A stretch of DNA of 52,414 bases, taken from positions 1-52,414 of the forward strand of contig JAFSCH010000005.1 of assembly GCA_017436865.1 (NCBI GenBank). Reading direction: 5' to 3'. The position numbers were made by a program, and so were the translations under genes. The number at the start of each line of letters is the position of its first letter. The first letter of the stretch is position 1. Source of the DNA: Lachnospiraceae bacterium. GTDB taxonomy: Bacteria > Bacillota > Clostridia > Lachnospirales > Lachnospiraceae. Positions 1-10,065 of the stretch are shown here, one piece after another. The notes below the pieces were generated by a model, which did not search any database, was not told the origin of the DNA, and was given only the letters and a program-made list of their open reading frames with translations.

Positions 1-228
1 GCCTGTGAAGGTTCTAAGCAGAGGTTTGTGCCTACCGGATTGGCAACCGGAGATAATGAGATAGAACAGCACCGGAATTTCAGCGAAACGCATTTTCCGG
101 GAGTGGCTCCCTGTAGATTCCGTCTGGATGGGCATGATGGAAATGCAGTGTGGGATGAAGCCGTCCCAATGTATGTTACCCGGCTGGGGGAACTGATTGA
201 GAAATCAGCTCAAAGAAATCTTTTTTGA
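1..228 (+). CDS. C-terminal part of an unrecognised element protein (5' partial)
   Basis: The reading frame is open from the first base of the window and ends with TGA at 226-228, giving 75 residues. The GTG at 28 is in frame but is probably an internal valine, because the frame continues upstream without a stop. The visible part is polar, with a short HFPGVAPCRFRLDGHDG stretch and a possible helix near the end (YVTRLGELIEKSA). I do not recognise the family. Its position upstream of the recombinase-related cassette suggests it belongs to the element backbone or cargo. Confidence 0.45.
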   Translation, partial: ACEGSKQRFVPTGLATGDNEIEQHRNFSETHFPGVAPCRFRLDGHDGNAVWDEAVPMYVTRLGELIEKSAQRNLF

Positions 229-243
229 TTTTTATGGATAATG

Positions 244-319
244 TGGCATTCGTGCCATGTTGTCCTTTGAGATAAGGAAGCTGACACATACATTGTTATA
301 TGAAGGACAGCTTTCTTAT
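244..319 (+). other. Intergenic hairpins upstream of the resolvase-like/MazF pair
   Basis: Two stems are visible between the partial gene and the next start. TGGCA-ttcg-TGCCA at 244-257 closes a TTCG tetraloop. ATAAGGAAGCTG (272-283) pairs with CAGCTTTCTTAT (308-319) with a single G-U. Neither is followed by a clear T-run, so attenuation or mRNA protection is as likely as termination. Confidence 0.4.
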
Positions 320-381
320 TTCAGAGGATAACTGCCGGCGTAATCTCTGTAAAAATCTATGAAAGAACAGGTACAAGAAAT

Positions 382-813
382 ATGTGCAACATAGGAATTG
401 TATTAGGAGACGCCGGGGTTAAATTTCCTACGGCTATTTTATTTATGAACTCCAACAAGTCGGAGCGTAATATCCGTAAAAAGGTTGCTAAGACCAGAGA
501 GAAATGTATGTCACATGGAATTGTCTTAGGGCATGATGTGGTAATCAACAAAGGTCCTGACAGAGATATTGACCGTGATGCAGTCAATATGCTTATCACA
601 TTTCTTCTTGACGGGGAATATCAGATGATTGTGGTGGACAAGCTCACAGACCTTACATCTGATTTATCGGATTTAGAGGAGTTCTTAAATGATGCGGCTG
701 CGATTGGTGTGAGTGTGTTTGAACTTTCTACCATGCAGGTCAGACATCATGTGTATATGGAAGGCTGCCCGGATTGTTCCACTATTGGTAAAATCATAAA
801 TCTGAGGTCTTGA
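382..813 (+). CDS. Degenerate resolvase-fold protein (catalytically dead), partner of MazF-like toxin
   Basis: This 143-residue protein looks like the N-terminal catalytic domain of a serine recombinase and nothing more. AILFMNS (18-24) aligns with AIYLRLS of the large recombinases, and the stretch MIVVDKLTDLTSDLSDLEEFL aligns with VIVKDLSRFGRNYIEAGRYIE. The Ser position is retained (Ser24), but the neighbouring Arg is Met and the two arginines of the S-R-x-x-R motif are gone, so strand cleavage is not expected. There is no DNA-binding recombinase domain or zinc ribbon. The stop is followed after one base by the MazF-like start, so the two are almost certainly co-transcribed. Its place is where an antitoxin normally sits. 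The fold assignment is by eye. Confidence 0.7.
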   Translation: MCNIGIVLGDAGVKFPTAILFMNSNKSERNIRKKVAKTREKCMSHGIVLGHDVVINKGPDRDIDRDAVNMLITFLLDGEYQMIVVDKLTDLTSDLSDLEEFLNDAAAIGVSVFELSTMQVRHHVYMEGCPDCSTIGKIINLRS

Positions 814-814
814 T

Positions 815-1180
815 ATGAAGATCAGACGAGGAGACATATTATATGTTGATTTAGGTGTGCAGTATCAGGGAAGCATTCAGGGCAGTATGCGTCCTGTGGT
901 GGTAGTAAGTAACAATATGGCGAACAAGCACAGCACCGTGATAACGGTTGTTCCCTTATCCACCAAAATCAACAAAAAGAGAAATCTTCCCACTCATGTA
1001 TTTGTGTCAGCTTATAAGAGCGAGGGATTAGAACAGCACAGTATCGCACTTTGCGAACAGGTGACAGCCCTCGATTATGGCAGAATTATTGAGAACATGG
1101 GCAAGGTTGATAAAGATACCCTTGCAAGGATAACCGAAGCTGTGCAAGTGCAGGTCGGGGTATTTGATAAGTATAACTGA
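815..1180 (+). CDS. MazF/PemK-family mRNA interferase toxin
   Basis: The 121 residues match the MazF/PemK family throughout. RRGDILYVDLG is at the start, MRPVVVVSNN follows a GS-x-Q-G turn, VITVVPLSTK comes next, and there is a late IALCEQVTALDYGRI strand-helix segment. Family members are sequence-specific endoribonucleases held in check by a co-encoded antitoxin. The length is normal for the family. The start lies one base after the upstream stop, with TGAGG at 804-808 as a ribosome site inside that gene. No ordinary antitoxin (AbrB, RHH or Phd type) is next to it; the only coupled partner is the resolvase-like protein upstream. It is followed by a hairpin terminator at 1201. Confidence 0.88.
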   Translation: MKIRRGDILYVDLGVQYQGSIQGSMRPVVVVSNNMANKHSTVITVVPLSTKINKKRNLPTHVFVSAYKSEGLEQHSIALCEQVTALDYGRIIENMGKVDKDTLARITEAVQVQVGVFDKYN

Positions 1181-1200
1181 TTATAAGGTAGATTTAGCAG

Positions 1201-1226
1201 AGCCGGGCAGGAGTGTCCGGCTTTTT
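1201..1226 (+). terminator. Rho-independent terminator after the MazF-like gene
   Basis: AGCCGG (1201-1206) pairs with CCGGCT (1217-1222) across a ten-base loop and runs into TTTTT. The 3' arm and tail (CCGGCTTTTTACATA) recur at the terminator at 2357. Confidence 0.75.
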
Positions 1227-2428: not shown

Positions 2429-2674
2429 GTGTCACTACTTAATTTGGAAGAAATGAGAGCAGTTGATATTAGAACTGTAAAGCCGGAGAGCCTTGTGGAT
2501 ATTACAAAAATTCATATAGACGAAAATCTGGAAGGGAAGGAAAGGGCAGAGGAATTTATCCGGCAGGTAAAAAATCCGTACTGTTATAAGGTTGGGAAAA
2601 TGATTGTGAAATCAAGCTACTCGAAGGGTTCTACACTTACGGAGCGTTTTCAGGAATTAGTCCTTGCGGTCTGA
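2429..2674 (+). CDS. Small element-associated protein (DUF6870-like)
   Basis: The GTG start at 2429 has a perfect AGGAGG at 2415-2420. The 81 residues contain VDITKIHIDENLEGKERAEE and a C-terminal NPYCYKVGKMIVK stretch, resembling a family of roughly 80-residue proteins often found beside serine recombinases in Clostridia elements; my memory is of DUF6870, and this was not checked. It has no membrane segment or evident DNA-binding motif. It sits between a terminator and the inverted repeats preceding the recombinases, so it could be an excision or regulatory accessory protein. Function is unknown. Confidence 0.65.
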   Translation: MSLLNLEEMRAVDIRTVKPESLVDITKIHIDENLEGKERAEEFIRQVKNPYCYKVGKMIVKSSYSKGSTLTERFQELVLAV

Positions 2675-2827: not shown

Positions 2828-4495
2828 ATGAAGGCGAACACTTCTAAAATTTATCACGCAGCCATCTACTTACGATTATCAAAGGAAGATGGCGATGTTG
2901 CCGAAGGTAGCAGACTGGAAAGCAACAGTATCTCAAATCAAAAAGATTTAATCATGGACTTTGTGGGTAAGCACCCGGAAATCCATATCCATTCCATACG
3001 GGTGGACGATGGATACAGCGGTGTTGACTTTAATCGTCCGAGTTTCCAACAAATGTTAGATGATATAAAGGCTGGCGAGGTTGACTGTGTCATTGTAAAG
3101 GACTTGTCACGATTTGGCAGAAATTATATCGAAGCAGGAAGATATATTGAAAAGATATTCCCAATGATGGGAGTGCGTTTCATTGCCGTTACGGACTGCT
3201 ATGACAGTCTTGAAAAGAATAACGGTACTGAAATGATTGTTCCTTTTAAGAACCTGATTAACGATGCGTACAGCAGGGACATTTCCATTAAGATTAGAAG
3301 TAATCTGGAAGTGAAAAGAAAAAGGGGCGATTACATCGGTGCATTTGTGGCATACGGTTATCAGAAGTCTTTTGAAAATAAGAACAAAATCGTTGTAGAC
3401 GAATATGCAGCCGAAGTTGTAAAAGATATTTTCAGAATGAAGCTACTTGGCATGAGCCAGCAGACCATAGCGGATATTCTGAATAATAACGGAATTTTAG
3501 CACCACTTGCCTATAAGAACAGTATCGGTATTCATTTGAAAACCTCGTTTGATATGGGGGAAGCACCGAAGTGGAATTATGTTTCTGTTACCCGTATTCT
3601 GAAAAATGAGATTTATACGGGTGTTCTGATACAGGGCAGACAGACAACTCCTAATTATAAAGTAAAGACAAGGGTAATGAAACCTGAGAGCCAATGGGTT
3701 CGTATAGAGAATAACCATGAGGCAATCATTAACCGGAGAGATTTTGATTTAGTTCAGGAGCTTCTTAAATTAGATACACGATGCTCACCGGGAGAAAATA
3801 AGGTTTATCCGTTATCAGGCGTTTTGGTGTGTGGGGATTGTCTTGACAGTATGGTGCGTAAGACGGTTCCGGCAAACGGTAAGCAGTATGTGTATTATGT
3901 CTGCTCTACCAATAAGAAGAATAAAAATCATTGTTCCTCACACCGGATCAGCGAAGCAGATTTAATGGATGCGGTATTAAAGTCCATTCAGCTTCATGTG
4001 AGTGAAATGCTGGGTGTCAAAAATGCCTTGAAAATGATTGATGAACTGCAATGGAAACAGGCAGGGATTGAGAAGTATGAGGAACGAATAAGGAGAGAAA
4101 AACAGAAGAAAGCCAAAATTGAAGCCCGAAAGCTGAATCTGTACGAAGATTTCAAGGATGGTATTTTAACCAAAGCGGAATATGTGCAGATGAAAGAGGA
4201 GTACAGCTATCAGATTGCTGTTTCGGATAGGGCAATCATTTCCTATGAGCATGAAGTGGAGCTTTTGAAAAATAACAAGGGTAGCAGACAGGAATGGATT
4301 AAGGCTTTTAAGAAATTTGAGAATATCACAGAATTAGACCGTGCGGCGGTAATTGCTCTGGTTAAGCAGGTGCGTGTGTATGGTAAAGACAGAATTGAGG
4401 TCATCTTCAATTTTCAGGAGGAAACAGAGAGACACAGCAGCTTAATTGCCTTTGCAAATCCTAACTACGATTATGTGGAAGGGATGGTGGTGTAA
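2828..4495 (+). CDS. Large serine recombinase 1
   Basis: Members integrate and excise mobile elements by a serine-linked double-strand exchange. The resolvase domain shows AAIYLRLSKED with Ser18, and VKDLSRFGRNYIEAGRYIE with both catalytic arginines. The Recombinase domain covers about residues 170-320. A zinc ribbon follows (VCGDC, then VCS and HCSSH), and then a charged coiled coil near residues 415-510. At 555 residues it is full length for the TndX/TnpX-type group. The ATG at 2828 is chosen over TTG at 2783 and ATG at 2813 because GGAG lies about nine bases upstream. Its stop is immediately followed by the next gene's ATG. Confidence 0.93.
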   Translation: MKANTSKIYHAAIYLRLSKEDGDVAEGSRLESNSISNQKDLIMDFVGKHPEIHIHSIRVDDGYSGVDFNRPSFQQMLDDIKAGEVDCVIVKDLSRFGRNYIEAGRYIEKIFPMMGVRFIAVTDCYDSLEKNNGTEMIVPFKNLINDAYSRDISIKIRSNLEVKRKRGDYIGAFVAYGYQKSFENKNKIVVDEYAAEVVKDIFRMKLLGMSQQTIADILNNNGILAPLAYKNSIGIHLKTSFDMGEAPKWNYVSVTRILKNEIYTGVLIQGRQTTPNYKVKTRVMKPESQWVRIENNHEAIINRRDFDLVQELLKLDTRCSPGENKVYPLSGVLVCGDCLDSMVRKTVPANGKQYVYYVCSTNKKNKNHCSSHRISEADLMDAVLKSIQLHVSEMLGVKNALKMIDELQWKQAGIEKYEERIRREKQKKAKIEARKLNLYEDFKDGILTKAEYVQMKEEYSYQIAVSDRAIISYEHEVELLKNNKGSRQEWIKAFKKFENITELDRAAVIALVKQVRVYGKDRIEVIFNFQEETERHSSLIAFANPNYDYVEGMVV

Positions 4496-6250
4496 ATGGC
4501 AAGAAAGAGCAGAAAGCAGACCACCGTTACACAGTTGGAAACTCCGGTTTCCGTAGCAGAATACAAGGTTTATCGCACAGCATTATATGCAAGATTATCT
4601 GCGGATGAGCATTGCAGGTCAGAAGGTACAACCATTGAAAACCAGCTTTACCTTTTACGAGATTATGTGAAGGATAAGCCATATCTTCAAGTGGTAGACG
4701 AGTATTATGATGACGGTGTAACCGGAACGAAGTTCGACAGACCTGATTTTAACCGTATGATAGCAGATATGCGGGCAGGTAAGATAGATTGCATTATTGT
4801 AAAAGATTTATCACGACTTGGCAGAAACTATTTGGAGGCAGGCGATTATCTTGAAAAAATATTCCCGTTCTTCGGTGTCCGTTTTATAGCAATTACGGAC
4901 GGATATGACAGCAGTTGCCCGAATCTTACGGAAGATGGGTTGATAGTTCCGTTAAAGAACCTGATAAATGACATTTATGCAAAAGACCTTTCACGGAAGA
5001 TAAGCTCAGCATTTCTTATGAAACAGAAGCAGGGGAAATTTATCGGAATGTCAGCTCCGTATGGATATATGAAATCTCCCGAAGATCATAACAAGCTGAT
5101 TGTTGATGAAGATGTAAGAGAGATTGTGTGGAATATCTTTCATTGGAGAGCAGACGGGGAAAGTCTTACAACTATTGCCAGACGATTGAATGATTATGAT
5201 ATTCCTTGTCCTACCAGATATAAATATCTCAGAGGCTGGGTTAAATCAGTACGGTCAAAGTCCGGTTTATGGACGGTCAGCACATTGGCAAGGGTTTTGG
5301 AAAATCCGGTGTATATCGGTGATATGGAACAGGGTATTGCAAGAACTGCATTATATAAGGGTATGAAAACAACCCGGATGCCTGTGGAGGAAAGAATTTA
5401 TGTTAAGAATACCCATGAGCCGATTGTAGAAAGAGAAATCTTTGAAAAAATCAATGAGCAGAGGCAAAAGTACAGAGAAAAATTCCATAGCAATTATGGT
5501 AAGCACGACAGCATTTCCAAAGAGCCGAATCTCCTAAAAGGTGTTTTGGTTTGTGCGGATTGTGGCAAGAATATGTCTCTTTGGAGGGATAGAAGCGGAG
5601 TTAAGCTGAATCCACCGAGGGTATATTATAAATATATCTGCCAGACTTATCAGACTTTGAAAGAGAAGGGTTGCACAAGAAAGCGTCTGAATAAGAAAGA
5701 TGTGGAAAGTGCAGTTGAGGAAGCTATCAGACTTCATATCAAGCTGTTTTTAGATGGCAGGAAGGCTCTGGAACAGTTAAACCGTACAGAACAGGCAAGA
5801 CAAATCAATGCAGGTTATCAGAGGGAAATCATTGAGGCTTGCAGGAGAAAAAGCAAGGCAGAGAGCAGAGCAGGCTCGCTTTACAATGATTATGCAGATG
5901 GTATCCTTAGCGAAAGTGATTATCTGTATGCGAAAGAGAAATATCTGAACGAAGCTGCGGCTGAGGAACAGAAAATCAATGAATTACAGGAACTTCAAAG
6001 GAGGTATGAAAAAGGCTGTAAAGAAGGCAGTAAGCTGGAAACAATCATTGAGAAGTATAAGAACTTTGACAATTTAACAGAGGACATTATCCAATCCTTT
6101 ATCAGTAAGGTGCTTGTATATAGTGATGAAAGGTTAGAGATATGCTTCCGTTTCAAAGACGAACTTGAGGAATTGGCACAAGTGGTTGAGGAAAGGAGGG
6201 ACGAGATATGCAGGGTAAAAGCACAGTTACCTATGGCAGCAAATATGTAA
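4496..6250 (+). CDS. Large serine recombinase 2
   Basis: This 584-residue recombinase has an N-terminal extension of about 28 residues. The catalytic motif TALYARLSADE follows (Ser35), then VKDLSRLGRNYLEAGDYLE with both catalytic arginines. A Recombinase domain, a zinc ribbon (VCADCGKNM, then ICQ and GCTRKR) and a coiled coil complete the family layout. The ATG directly abuts the upstream stop, so translation is probably coupled. The three recombinases are clearly homologous but diverged, which argues for separate roles or a heteromeric complex rather than a recent duplication. Confidence 0.93.
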   Translation: MARKSRKQTTVTQLETPVSVAEYKVYRTALYARLSADEHCRSEGTTIENQLYLLRDYVKDKPYLQVVDEYYDDGVTGTKFDRPDFNRMIADMRAGKIDCIIVKDLSRLGRNYLEAGDYLEKIFPFFGVRFIAITDGYDSSCPNLTEDGLIVPLKNLINDIYAKDLSRKISSAFLMKQKQGKFIGMSAPYGYMKSPEDHNKLIVDEDVREIVWNIFHWRADGESLTTIARRLNDYDIPCPTRYKYLRGWVKSVRSKSGLWTVSTLARVLENPVYIGDMEQGIARTALYKGMKTTRMPVEERIYVKNTHEPIVEREIFEKINEQRQKYREKFHSNYGKHDSISKEPNLLKGVLVCADCGKNMSLWRDRSGVKLNPPRVYYKYICQTYQTLKEKGCTRKRLNKKDVESAVEEAIRLHIKLFLDGRKALEQLNRTEQARQINAGYQREIIEACRRKSKAESRAGSLYNDYADGILSESDYLYAKEKYLNEAAAEEQKINELQELQRRYEKGCKEGSKLETIIEKYKNFDNLTEDIIQSFISKVLVYSDERLEICFRFKDELEELAQVVEERRDEICRVKAQLPMAANM

Positions 6251-7818
6251 TTGCCTTGTATATCCGATTATCACAGGAAGATCGTGATGTGTCCCTTCGG
6301 GCGGACAAGGCGGAGAGCAACAGTATAACCAATCAGAGAGCTTTACTTTGGGATTTCATTAGAAACCATGAGGAATTTGCAGATTGTACCGTAATTGAGA
6401 AGTGCGATGATGGATATTCCGGTGTACATTTTGACAGCAGACCACAGTTCACAGAGCTGATTGAACTTGCAAAGGTGGGCAAGGTGAACTGTATCATAGT
6501 AAAGGACTTCTCCCGATTTGGTAGAAACTATGTGGAGCTGGGCGATTATCTGGAGCAGTATTTCCCATTCCTCGGTGTAAGGTTTATATCAGTAAATGAT
6601 AACTATGACAGTAAGGATTTTGAGGGTACAACAGGCGGTCTTGATGTTGCGTTCAAGAATATGATTTATGACTTTTACAGCAGGGAGTTTTCTAAGAAAC
6701 AAAGAATTGCTTGGAGACGAATGGCTGAAAAAGGAGAGTATAATGCTCCTAATGCCATGTATGGTTATAGGAAAGCAGAGGATAATGTTCATCAGTTGGT
6801 AGTCCATGAGGAGACAGGGAAGATTGTTAAGGAAATTTTTGAGCTTGTAGCTTCCGGTGTTTCTACATTAAATGTTGCTAAGTTGTTGAATGAACGAGGG
6901 ATTTCGGCTCCGTCAGAGTTTCAGAATATGCAGGGATTTACAAAGCAGTGGAGCCCATACGGTGCTAAATGTTATTGGACTGCTGATAGAATCTATTGCA
7001 TGGTTAAAGACGAGAGATATACCGGAACAATGATTTCGCTCAAAACAACATCATTTACAGTAAGAGGCAAGCGTGTAAAAACACCACCGTCTGAATGGGT
7101 GAGGGTAGAAGATACTCATGAACCCATTGTGTCTTATGAGCTTTATGTGAAAGCAAATTCAATGCTGAGACAAATAGAGTTTAGGGCAAGTGGTAAGTCC
7201 GGCAGGAATATTTATCATTGTGGTTATTGTGGTAGAAAAATGCAGAAGGATGGAAAAGGTGGTCTTAGGTGTGGTCAGAGATATTTGATTAAAGAGTGTA
7301 GATGCCGAAGTGCGGTTATAAATCTTGAGGAAGCAAATGAGGCTGTTTTATCAGCTTTGAAGCAACAAATACGATTGTTTGTCAAAGAAGCTGAATTATC
7401 TAAGACTGTGAAGAATAAAACAGTTCCTTTTTCTGAAGGTGCTGAGATTGCAACCTTGATAAAAAGCATTGCTACAATGAAAAAGACATGGATGCCACTC
7501 TATGAGCAATACACGGATGGTAAGTTATCCAGAGAGGATTTCCTCGTGGAAAAGAAAAAATACGATGAAGAAACTGCAAGATTGGAGCAGAGGTTACATG
7601 AGCTTCAAAGCAAGCAGGAACTTCAACAGGAGAATGAACAGCAGATAGAGAAGAATATCAGTCAGTTAGGTTGCTATGCTGAACAGATGGAACTTACGGA
7701 AGAAATAAAAGAGAAGCTGATTGACAAAGTGAATGTATATTCCGATAATAGAATAGAAATCTGTTGGAACTTTGATAGCAGTTTCTTTGATTTGGAAACT
7801 ATGCACAAGTGCGGTTAG
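6208..7818 (+). CDS. Large serine recombinase 3
   Basis: The start overlaps the end of recombinase 2 by 43 bases in another frame and has a GGAGG at 6194-6199 inside that gene. Residues IALYIRLSQED carry Ser22, and VKDFSRFGRNYVELGDYLE carries the arginines. The zinc ribbon reads HCGYCGRKM, then RCGQ and CRC, and a coiled coil near residues 440-500 completes a 536-residue protein. All elements needed for catalysis are visible. The long overlap is a genuine coupled arrangement, since both proteins are full length. Confidence 0.93.
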   Translation: MQGKSTVTYGSKYVIALYIRLSQEDRDVSLRADKAESNSITNQRALLWDFIRNHEEFADCTVIEKCDDGYSGVHFDSRPQFTELIELAKVGKVNCIIVKDFSRFGRNYVELGDYLEQYFPFLGVRFISVNDNYDSKDFEGTTGGLDVAFKNMIYDFYSREFSKKQRIAWRRMAEKGEYNAPNAMYGYRKAEDNVHQLVVHEETGKIVKEIFELVASGVSTLNVAKLLNERGISAPSEFQNMQGFTKQWSPYGAKCYWTADRIYCMVKDERYTGTMISLKTTSFTVRGKRVKTPPSEWVRVEDTHEPIVSYELYVKANSMLRQIEFRASGKSGRNIYHCGYCGRKMQKDGKGGLRCGQRYLIKECRCRSAVINLEEANEAVLSALKQQIRLFVKEAELSKTVKNKTVPFSEGAEIATLIKSIATMKKTWMPLYEQYTDGKLSREDFLVEKKKYDEETARLEQRLHELQSKQELQQENEQQIEKNISQLGCYAEQMELTEEIKEKLIDKVNVYSDNRIEICWNFDSSFFDLETMHKCG

Positions 7819-9456: not shown

Positions 9457-10065
9457 ATGTACGCATATATTAAGGGTGAAATTGTAGATATATCAGAAGA
9501 TAATGTAGTGTTAGAATGTAACAATATCGGTTATAATATAAAGGTTCCGTTTGGTGTAGTCCAAAGACTTCCGGGCGTTGGAGAAGTAGTTAAAATATAT
9601 ACTTATACATCGGTACGAGAGGATGCATTTATATTATTTGGTTTTTTGTCAAAGGATGATTTGTTTATTTTTAAGAAGCTGATTACGGTAAATGGAATTG
9701 GACCAAAGGGTGCTTTGGGTATTTTATCGGCAATGAGTGCGGATGATTTGCGTTTTGCTATTATTGCAGGTGATGCCAAAGCGATTGCAAAAGCACCAGG
9801 AATTGGGGCGAAATCTGCGGAGAGAATTATTCTTGAATTAAAAGGCAAGATTGATTTAGAGCCAATGCTGACAGCACAGGAGCCTGCTGCTGGTGTGGGC
9901 GGTTTGACTAATTCCGATGCGAAGAACGAAGCAATTGAGGCTATGATAGCTTTGGGGTATTCTTCTTCAGAAGCGGTTAAGGCTATTAAGCAGTTAACCA
10001 TTATGGATGATATGGATTCTGGTGTTATCTTAAAGGATGCATTAAAGATATTGGTGCGAGGATAA
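9457..10065 (+). CDS. ruvA: Holliday junction DNA helicase subunit RuvA
   Basis: RuvA binds four-way junctions and loads RuvB for branch migration. The protein shows the N-terminal OB domain (MYAYIKGEIVDISEDNVVLE), two helix-hairpin-helix motifs (LITVNGIGPKGALGIL and APGIGAKSAERIILELKGK), and a C-terminal helical domain (NEAIEAMIALGYSSSEA) that contacts RuvB. At 202 residues it is normal length. AGGAGA at 9445-9450 sets the ATG. It is followed by ruvB in the usual order. Confidence 0.97.
   Translation: MYAYIKGEIVDISEDNVVLECNNIGYNIKVPFGVVQRLPGVGEVVKIYTYTSVREDAFILFGFLSKDDLFIFKKLITVNGIGPKGALGILSAMSADDLRFAIIAGDAKAIAKAPGIGAKSAERIILELKGKIDLEPMLTAQEPAAGVGGLTNSDAKNEAIEAMIALGYSSSEAVKAIKQLTIMDDMDSGVILKDALKILVRG

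Follow-up and report, generated by a model that had tools for sequence, protein, structure and literature searches.

In mobile elements of gut bacteria of the Lachnospiraceae, a gene for a catalytically dead serine-recombinase catalytic domain, here labeled alpha, lies directly in front of a gene for a MazF-family endoribonuclease, and the two follow a structured leader RNA. The pair was analyzed in the window, by which we mean the whole 52,414-nt stretch of DNA under study, and in relatives across the family and the order. The arrangement is real, conserved, and unusual, while its function is unproven. We tentatively favor, at somewhat less than even confidence, a reading in which alpha is an auxiliary, antitoxin-like partner of MazF within an RNA-led control operon, its antitoxin activity being putative.

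Table 1. Coordinates of the leader RNA, the alpha-MazF cassette, and the recombination module in the window
Feature	Position	Strand	Basis or remark
3' part of conserved structured RNA core	1-191	+	nhmmer 1-191 (L102); 5' part beyond contig start
Two more leader hairpins, 243-258 and a 25-bp stem at 259-332	243-332	+	RNA folding
Alpha, catalytically dead serine-recombinase catalytic domain, 143 aa	382-813	+	Sequence profile, predicted fold
MazF/PemK-family endoribonuclease, 121 aa	815-1180	+	PF02452, 4.7e-27
Terminator-like hairpin then T run, directly 3' of MazF	1199-1224	+	MFE -18.6 kcal/mol, z -4.8 (1185-1232)
Degenerate larger recombinase-like protein, 347 aa	1284-2327	+	PF00239, 35.4 bits
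DUF6870 protein, first gene of separate recombination module	2429-2674	+	PF21757, 96.6 bits
Three large serine recombinases	2828-4495, 4496-6250, 6208-7818	+	PF00239, PF07508, zinc-ribbon domains

The layout of the locus is given in Table 1. An earlier sequence-only reading of this DNA had described a 143-residue protein ending one base before a complete MazF/PemK gene; both points were borne out, the alpha ORF starting with ATG and the gap measuring 1 nt. In agreement with its further statement that no ordinary antitoxin is present, no MazE/AbrB-like protein was found among the 10 larger window proteins scanned. The hairpin behind MazF is absent from the list of a simple terminator scan, and the zinc ribbon of the third large recombinase scores under the cut-off. 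From about position 9457, the sequence is chromosome-like (ruvA, ruvB; named by reading of translations). A second copy in the same genome (L002, contig C130) has an alpha 92% identical and a MazF 98% identical to those of the window, and a first recombinase only 38% identical. The degenerate 347-aa recombinase has no counterpart in this copy nor in L004, L005, or L008. In this genome (G000), the ends of contigs C4, C33, C61, and C130 carry the leader RNA. Inside the RNA, the C4 and C61 ends are each identical over 138 nt to the C33 and C130 ends, so that more than one left half may belong to the window; by eye, agr-like genes are seen on C4 and radical-SAM-like genes on C61.

The window alpha on its own matches PF00239 weakly (15.3 bits, under the cut-off of 23.3) and has no NCBIfam match. 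For the family, the relationship is clear. A profile of 15 members (A4), compared with PDB sequences, matched the TP901-1 integrase (3bvp; E, 1.8e-7) and gamma-delta resolvase (E, 9.8e-6), and hhalign paired alpha with the recombinases that the elements themselves encode (E, 6.5e-7; probability, 92). The same profile weakly picked open frames of about 450 to 680 aa in the family genomes (E, 9e-9 to 1e-3), a size typical of large serine recombinases. A distant alpha, L011, clears the Pfam Resolvase cut-off (39.2 bits), and the divergent alphas L063 and L073 gave no Pfam Resolvase match. The AlphaFold2 model (mean pLDDT, 77.4; residues 1 to 9 and 124 to 143 under 50) is a single domain with no DNA-binding domain. 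When it was compared with known structures, all six Foldseek matches at E<=0.001 were serine recombinases (best, 3g13; TM, 0.60), and a viral fold search returned integrases and resolvases at the top and nothing further. By sequence and predicted fold, alpha is a serine-recombinase catalytic domain, confirming the resolvase relationship first proposed for it.

Alpha does not, however, carry the catalytic Ser and Arg residues of a working serine recombinase. Conservation was assessed over 47 distinct alphas out of 57 collected, those under 100 aa being left out, with Ser10 and the arginines R8, R45, R68, and R71 of gamma-delta resolvase taken by us to be the catalytic residues. In the profile alignment, gamma-delta D44-R45 correspond to alpha D64-R65, and D67, R68, and R71 to T89, D90, and S93. 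The R45 equivalent, R65, is kept in 43/47, D64 in 46, and D94 in 45. The R68 position is D, E, or Q, with Asp (residue 90) in 43/47, and the R71 position (residue 93) is Arg in only two. With the register at Ser and R8 resting on F21 (in 46/47) aligned with Tyr6, the R8 position is N, K, G, or S, and the Ser10 position is Asn25 in the window alpha and N, M, R, Y, or Q over the family; the nearby S24 and S27 vary. The sequence-only reading had held that the Ser position is kept, which is not supported in this register, and that all catalytic arginines are lost, which is right for the R8, R68, and R71 equivalents but not for that of R45.

Loss of these residues might suggest a decaying recombinase remnant without function. 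Yet alpha is under purifying selection (median dN/dS, 0.13 over 364 pairs with dS of 0.05 to 1.2), and the Asp in place of Arg68 as well as the nearly invariant D64 and D94 also speak against decay. Alpha is a real gene; a functionless remnant is contradicted by the selection estimate, and we regard it as highly improbable.

The MazF of the window appears ordinary by sequence. It matches PF02452 at 94.8 bits (cut-off, 23.1) and, in PDB, the Bacillus MazF-type structures 4hke and 7bxy at about 1e-19. Its Arg26 aligns with Arg25 of the RPV motif and its Ser49 with Thr48 of the PDB MazF, both of which are presumably catalytic. An alignment scan of genome contigs gave 285 relatives, of which the best 80 were taken: 48 close ones, at about 64% identity or more, and 32 distant ones. 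An alpha gene lies within 1.3 kb upstream in 41 of the 48 close relatives, or in 41 of the 46 that are informative (L027 and L053 have no upstream sequence), and the gap between the two genes is -4, -1, or +1 nt in 35 of the 41. Viewed from the alpha side, with alpha genes counted at a profile E<=1e-11 in an open frame under 200 aa, 299 family genomes hold 19 places, and MazF follows downstream at 18, the exception being G110:C18 (L195); the 18 include G122 (same locus as L026), where the MazF behind alpha carries a stop. An order-wide search of 392 genomes added three alpha places, all with MazF, for 21/22 in total. Several loci are near-identical or come from one genome, so these pairing counts, which do not include the PF02452 survey of the 299 genomes, are not independent. 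The pairing of alpha and MazF is real and conserved, even if the two are not always adjacent. The association spans MazF relatives of about 32 to 37% identity, two divergent resolvase-derived families, and elements with serine-recombinase triplets as well as Tn916-type tyrosine integrases; it is old and specific. The ORFs inspected included no fusion of alpha with MazF.

The exceptions to this pairing were inspected on both sides. Five close loci (L054, L057, L058, L059, and L061) have an intact MazF and no alpha, and a search of the draft genomes of four of them (L054, L057, L058, and L061) detected no alpha at E<=1e-7 in other places. Median dN/dS is 0.043 for these alpha-less MazF genes (9 of 10 pairs; three of the five are nearly identical), a sign of strong purifying selection, and 0.071 for MazF with alpha (pairs with dS of 0.05 to 1.2). 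L026, L055, L064, L065, and L066 do not enter these estimates because a stop falls inside the 363 nt that were compared; in L065, the shorter length of its MazF is the sole cause. The five alpha-less genes form one clade in both outgroup-rooted trees, which were built from intact close MazF genes with four distant MazF genes as the root (ultrafast bootstrap, 89 for codons and 92 for protein); an earlier midpoint-rooted tree, with degraded genes included, placed L061 with the alpha-bearing L065 and L066 instead. An alpha-less clade among alpha-bearing relatives suggests one loss of alpha. A MazF that keeps its sequence without alpha does not need alpha, unless another inhibitor exists. In the opposite direction, alpha is intact and MazF interrupted by a stop in L026 and L055 or rearranged in L052. 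Losses thus point both ways, to MazF without alpha and to alpha with damaged MazF. In L064 and L066, alpha is shortened and MazF broken, and MazF is absent behind the alpha-like gene of L195 and the resolvase-like gene of L235.

Among the 32 distant MazF relatives, nine have alpha and gamma (gamma and beta being our labels for further small proteins of related cassettes), one has gamma at a contig edge, and 22 have neither. In four of the latter (L074, L090, L097, and L098), another protein of about 163 aa (5493-5984 in L074) ends 6 to 7 nt before MazF; we take it to resemble phage sigma/ArpU-like regulators, and the one tested, that of L074, has no Pfam match. An acidic peptide with the pattern MSIDWEELL.AEGEDL.DAY also precedes distant MazF genes (L094:5727-5837, L096:2359-2469, and L091:5610-5831) and is possibly another kind of partner. 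The sequence-only reading had named homologous toxins regularly lying next to a different conserved antitoxin as a finding that would count against its proposal, and some of this was seen, with 5/46 informative close and 22/32 distant loci lacking alpha and four MazF genes lying behind another protein. In a further locus (L193:2484-3251), a stand-alone resolvase-like protein of 126 aa, in which an SRxxR motif is kept, begins 6 nt after a Bacillus-like MazF.

A second cassette layout, seen for 8 of the 22 alpha genes, runs XRE regulator, alpha, gamma, XRE, beta, MazF (XRE names are by reading of translations, save one Pfam HTH_3 match in L199). Behind this cassette, L199, L200, and L190 carry a Tn916-type tyrosine integrase, with a Tn916-type excisionase between cassette and integrase in L199, and L192 carries a serine recombinase; in L196, no recombinase gene was found in the 4 kb downstream. 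The loci with this layout or with beta are L196 to L201, L190, L192, and L218 to L232. Since alpha and MazF stay together in elements that use a Tn916-type tyrosine integrase, alpha cannot be explained just as a subunit of a serine recombinase encoded nearby.

Beta (about 125 aa) scores over the Pfam Resolvase cut-off of 23.3 in two of four cases (26.4 and 27.2; the others, 14.9 and 19.6), matches TnpX in PDB (9.2e-7), and aligns with alpha in hhalign (1.8e-5; probability, 78), so that the alpha and beta families may share one origin. Besides one long-frame recombinase, beta was found at 14 places in the 299 genomes, with MazF just downstream in 12. The gap at these 12 is -4 to +3 in ten, 65 nt in one, and overlapping frames in one. 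Beta itself carries a stop in L224, and it stands without MazF in L227, where a tyrosine integrase follows, and in L231. Gamma is a protein of 45 to 80 aa with the pattern SETxVxDxxGxxVVxCPTExEAxEYI, found before MazF or DUF6870 (L092:5757-6002, L073:5856-6011, and L204:1332-1547). It lies between alpha and MazF in G009, G014, G605, and G594, and three gammas tested had no Pfam match over the cut-off. Gamma is another candidate antitoxin in its layout.

Next, we considered the conserved, non-coding-looking region just upstream of alpha (window 1-381), of which a complete core is found at L160:958-1240. The leader RNA is present in 39/41 close alpha loci, missing only in the degraded L064 and L066, in 9/9 distant alpha loci, and in 5/5 close loci without alpha; it was found in none of the 23 distant MazF loci without alpha and in none of the beta loci. 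Model R1 matches window 13-113 at 120 bits; one of the relatives behind the model is a 99% identical copy. RNAalifold on 23 sequences of the core gave 54 pairs, 33 of them with changes on both sides, and 93.5% of alignment cells pair. The covariation score was 0.404, compared with 0.061 to 0.106 when partners were slid, and 0 of 500 shuffles scored as high; the structure was derived from the scored alignment, which favors it, and the sequences are related. Positions 240 to 381 fold with z of -5.5. The 3' hairpins comprise 26 pairs with 97.6% of cells paired and 10 pairs with double changes (19 loci), and their 22 pair types are no excess over the shuffle mean of 22.3. A short "ORF" at 28-228 has its frame broken by one-base indels in L143 and L061 and is probably the leader RNA read in frame.

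Rfam returned only chance-level matches for the window part and for L037, and nothing at the gathering threshold but HTH-XRE RNA, which occurs elsewhere in 12 loci (nine with the leader). This HTH-XRE RNA (RF02923) lies upstream of the cassette in both layouts (L022:4047-4121, L073:3048-3127, L199:8-83, and L200:2585-2660). The leader is a large structured RNA that covaries strongly and that no Rfam family matched; it may be among the unnamed candidates of PMC8040213. A covariance model of a 101-nt part gave strong matches in L176, the only such case in 77 other loci, and in three family genomes out of 99. In L176 and L233, the leader heads gamma, DUF6870, and recombinases; in L235, it heads a Resolvase-domain protein (46.9 bits), gamma, DUF6870, and recombinases; in L195, it heads an alpha-like gene only; and in L234, it heads gamma, MazF, DUF6870, and recombinases. 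Because it also heads operons without MazF, as in the first four, the leader marks the control operon and not MazF as such.

These data also bear on the idea that the leader RNA is the main regulator of MazF, through cis control or as a type III-like RNA antitoxin, with alpha secondary. Its covariation and its near-constant presence at close MazF loci with or without alpha would fit, and the fold of MazF is also that of type III toxins such as ToxN. Type III RNA antitoxins, however, have tandem repeats, and the only array in positions 1 to 1300 consists of two 9-nt copies at 657-675, inside alpha. Together with the occurrence of the RNA without MazF and its absence from beta loci and distant alpha-less MazF loci, this makes such a role for the RNA improbable in our judgment.

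To see which genes travel together, pairwise protein distances were correlated over 28 non-redundant loci, out of 32 complete enough, from the 41 close alpha loci. Alpha correlated with MazF (r=0.89) and DUF6870 with recombinase 1 (r=0.84), whereas correlations across the two groups were 0.16 to 0.35; of 129 MazF pairs at most 8% different, 95 come with first recombinases at least 40% different. Alpha and MazF form one co-varying block, and DUF6870 and the recombinases stand apart from it. Such block structure shows linkage and not contact, and the alpha-MazF correlation may reflect linkage alone.

DUF6870, a term absent from the literature searched, was weighed as the antitoxin of this MazF, as it is encoded at most 1.8 kb downstream in 69 of 80 MazF loci (the best 80 of 285) and overlaps MazF in some. 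For a wider view, 60 DUF6870 loci (L130 to L189) were taken from about 97 places, being the best 62 minus the two of the window's genome. A serine-recombinase match lies downstream in 59 of them, and MazF lies upstream in only 10, with 10 of the 60 showing under 1 kb of upstream sequence. Since its distances track recombinase 1 and MazF is so rarely upstream, DUF6870 is a poor antitoxin candidate, and we rejected it as having almost no chance of that role; it is an uncharacterized protein with a probable role in recombination.

What alpha does to MazF has two main answers. Tuning of MazF is its most likely role, as alpha is encoded first, in overlapping or adjoining genes, occurs almost only with MazF, and is kept with an unrelated integrase. 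The damaged MazF genes behind an intact alpha also count in favor of this role, while the alpha-less clade, the distant MazF loci with neither alpha nor gamma, and the beta genes without MazF speak against an obligate antitoxin. Nearly as likely, and a close second, is that alpha, beta, and the other resolvase-derived proteins control the element as modulators of recombination or transcription, do not bind MazF, and leave it to be checked by low expression or other means. The position of the cassette, which in most loci directly precedes recombination genes (there are none close by in L196 and L228), the beta or resolvase-like proteins without MazF in L227, L231, L235, and L195, and the persistence of MazF without alpha all fit such control of the element; the near-constant presence of MazF behind alpha, the use of tyrosine integrases by some carriers, and the single-domain alpha model without a DNA-binding domain argue for a tie to MazF instead. 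Toxin activity may also depend on the integration state of the element, the other suggestion of the sequence-only reading; most cassettes, though not all, do sit next to recombination genes.

According to the favored reading, that alpha tunes MazF, the leader RNA would head a control operon that, in most loci of these Lachnospiraceae mobile elements, immediately precedes the recombination genes, with resolvase-derived proteins, gamma, and MazF as optional parts. Alpha would be a former serine-recombinase catalytic domain that lost catalysis; it would bind MazF and hold down or tune the RNase, while being dispensable in some elements. The single transcript, the physical contact between alpha and MazF, and the direction of the effect are all steps that we infer. 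Speculatively, the Asp that replaces a catalytic arginine could suit contact with the basic RNA-binding groove. A more far-reaching version, in which dead serine-recombinase domains (alpha and beta), acidic at the catalytic-Arg site, were recruited as MazF inhibitors and an operon led by an unclassified RNA couples toxin control to recombination genes, we consider rather unlikely in its entirety. The sequence-only proposal that a dead resolvase was recruited as antitoxin is therefore upheld as to the recruitment and the association with MazF, but the antitoxin activity is unproven, and MazF also occurs without alpha.

Several known systems resemble the locus in part. As in mazEF and pemIK, a mobile element carries a MazF-family RNase gene right after a small protein gene whose stop overlaps or abuts the toxin start; here, however, the upstream protein is a dead serine-recombinase domain and not MazE/AbrB-like, and it is absent in 5/46 informative close relatives with intact MazF. 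In the two-gene hipMP operon, as described in PMC8262856, the gamma-delta-resolvase-like protein HipP is postulated as the antitoxin of the HipM kinase. HipP, compared here by its description only, is thus a known precedent for a resolvase-like putative antitoxin, though only a postulated one, and its toxin is a kinase and not a MazF RNase. Streptococcal ICEs likewise have three tandem serine integrases, with varied conjugation modules, but the word MazF is absent from the text of PMC4701971. In the C. difficile island 023_CTnT, a resolvase-family serine recombinase is followed first by a hypothetical protein and then by PemK/MazF (Table 1 of PMC6814731), a likeness of gene listing and not of sequence. 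Type III systems (ToxIN) share a structured RNA upstream of an RNase toxin (PMC8040213); the RNA here differs in having no tandem repeats, in occurring without MazF, and in usually having a protein gene in between. Among the papers listed in the literature searches, titles and abstract openings named no resolvase-like antitoxin for a MazF. Alpha gave no tblastn match in phage and plasmid records, scans of viral contigs gave one locus with alpha and none with beta, PADLOC had no match for seven proteins, and PHROGs had none for the window alpha.

In either case, the elements carry a large structured RNA with strong covariation, unmatched by any Rfam family. If alpha or beta does restrain MazF, RNase toxins of a well-studied class would have an antitoxin with an unusual fold, and a recombinase domain would have turned protein inhibitor beside the recombination genes of the very element that it would guard. 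If not, the locus would be a test case for MazF in mobile elements without MazE.
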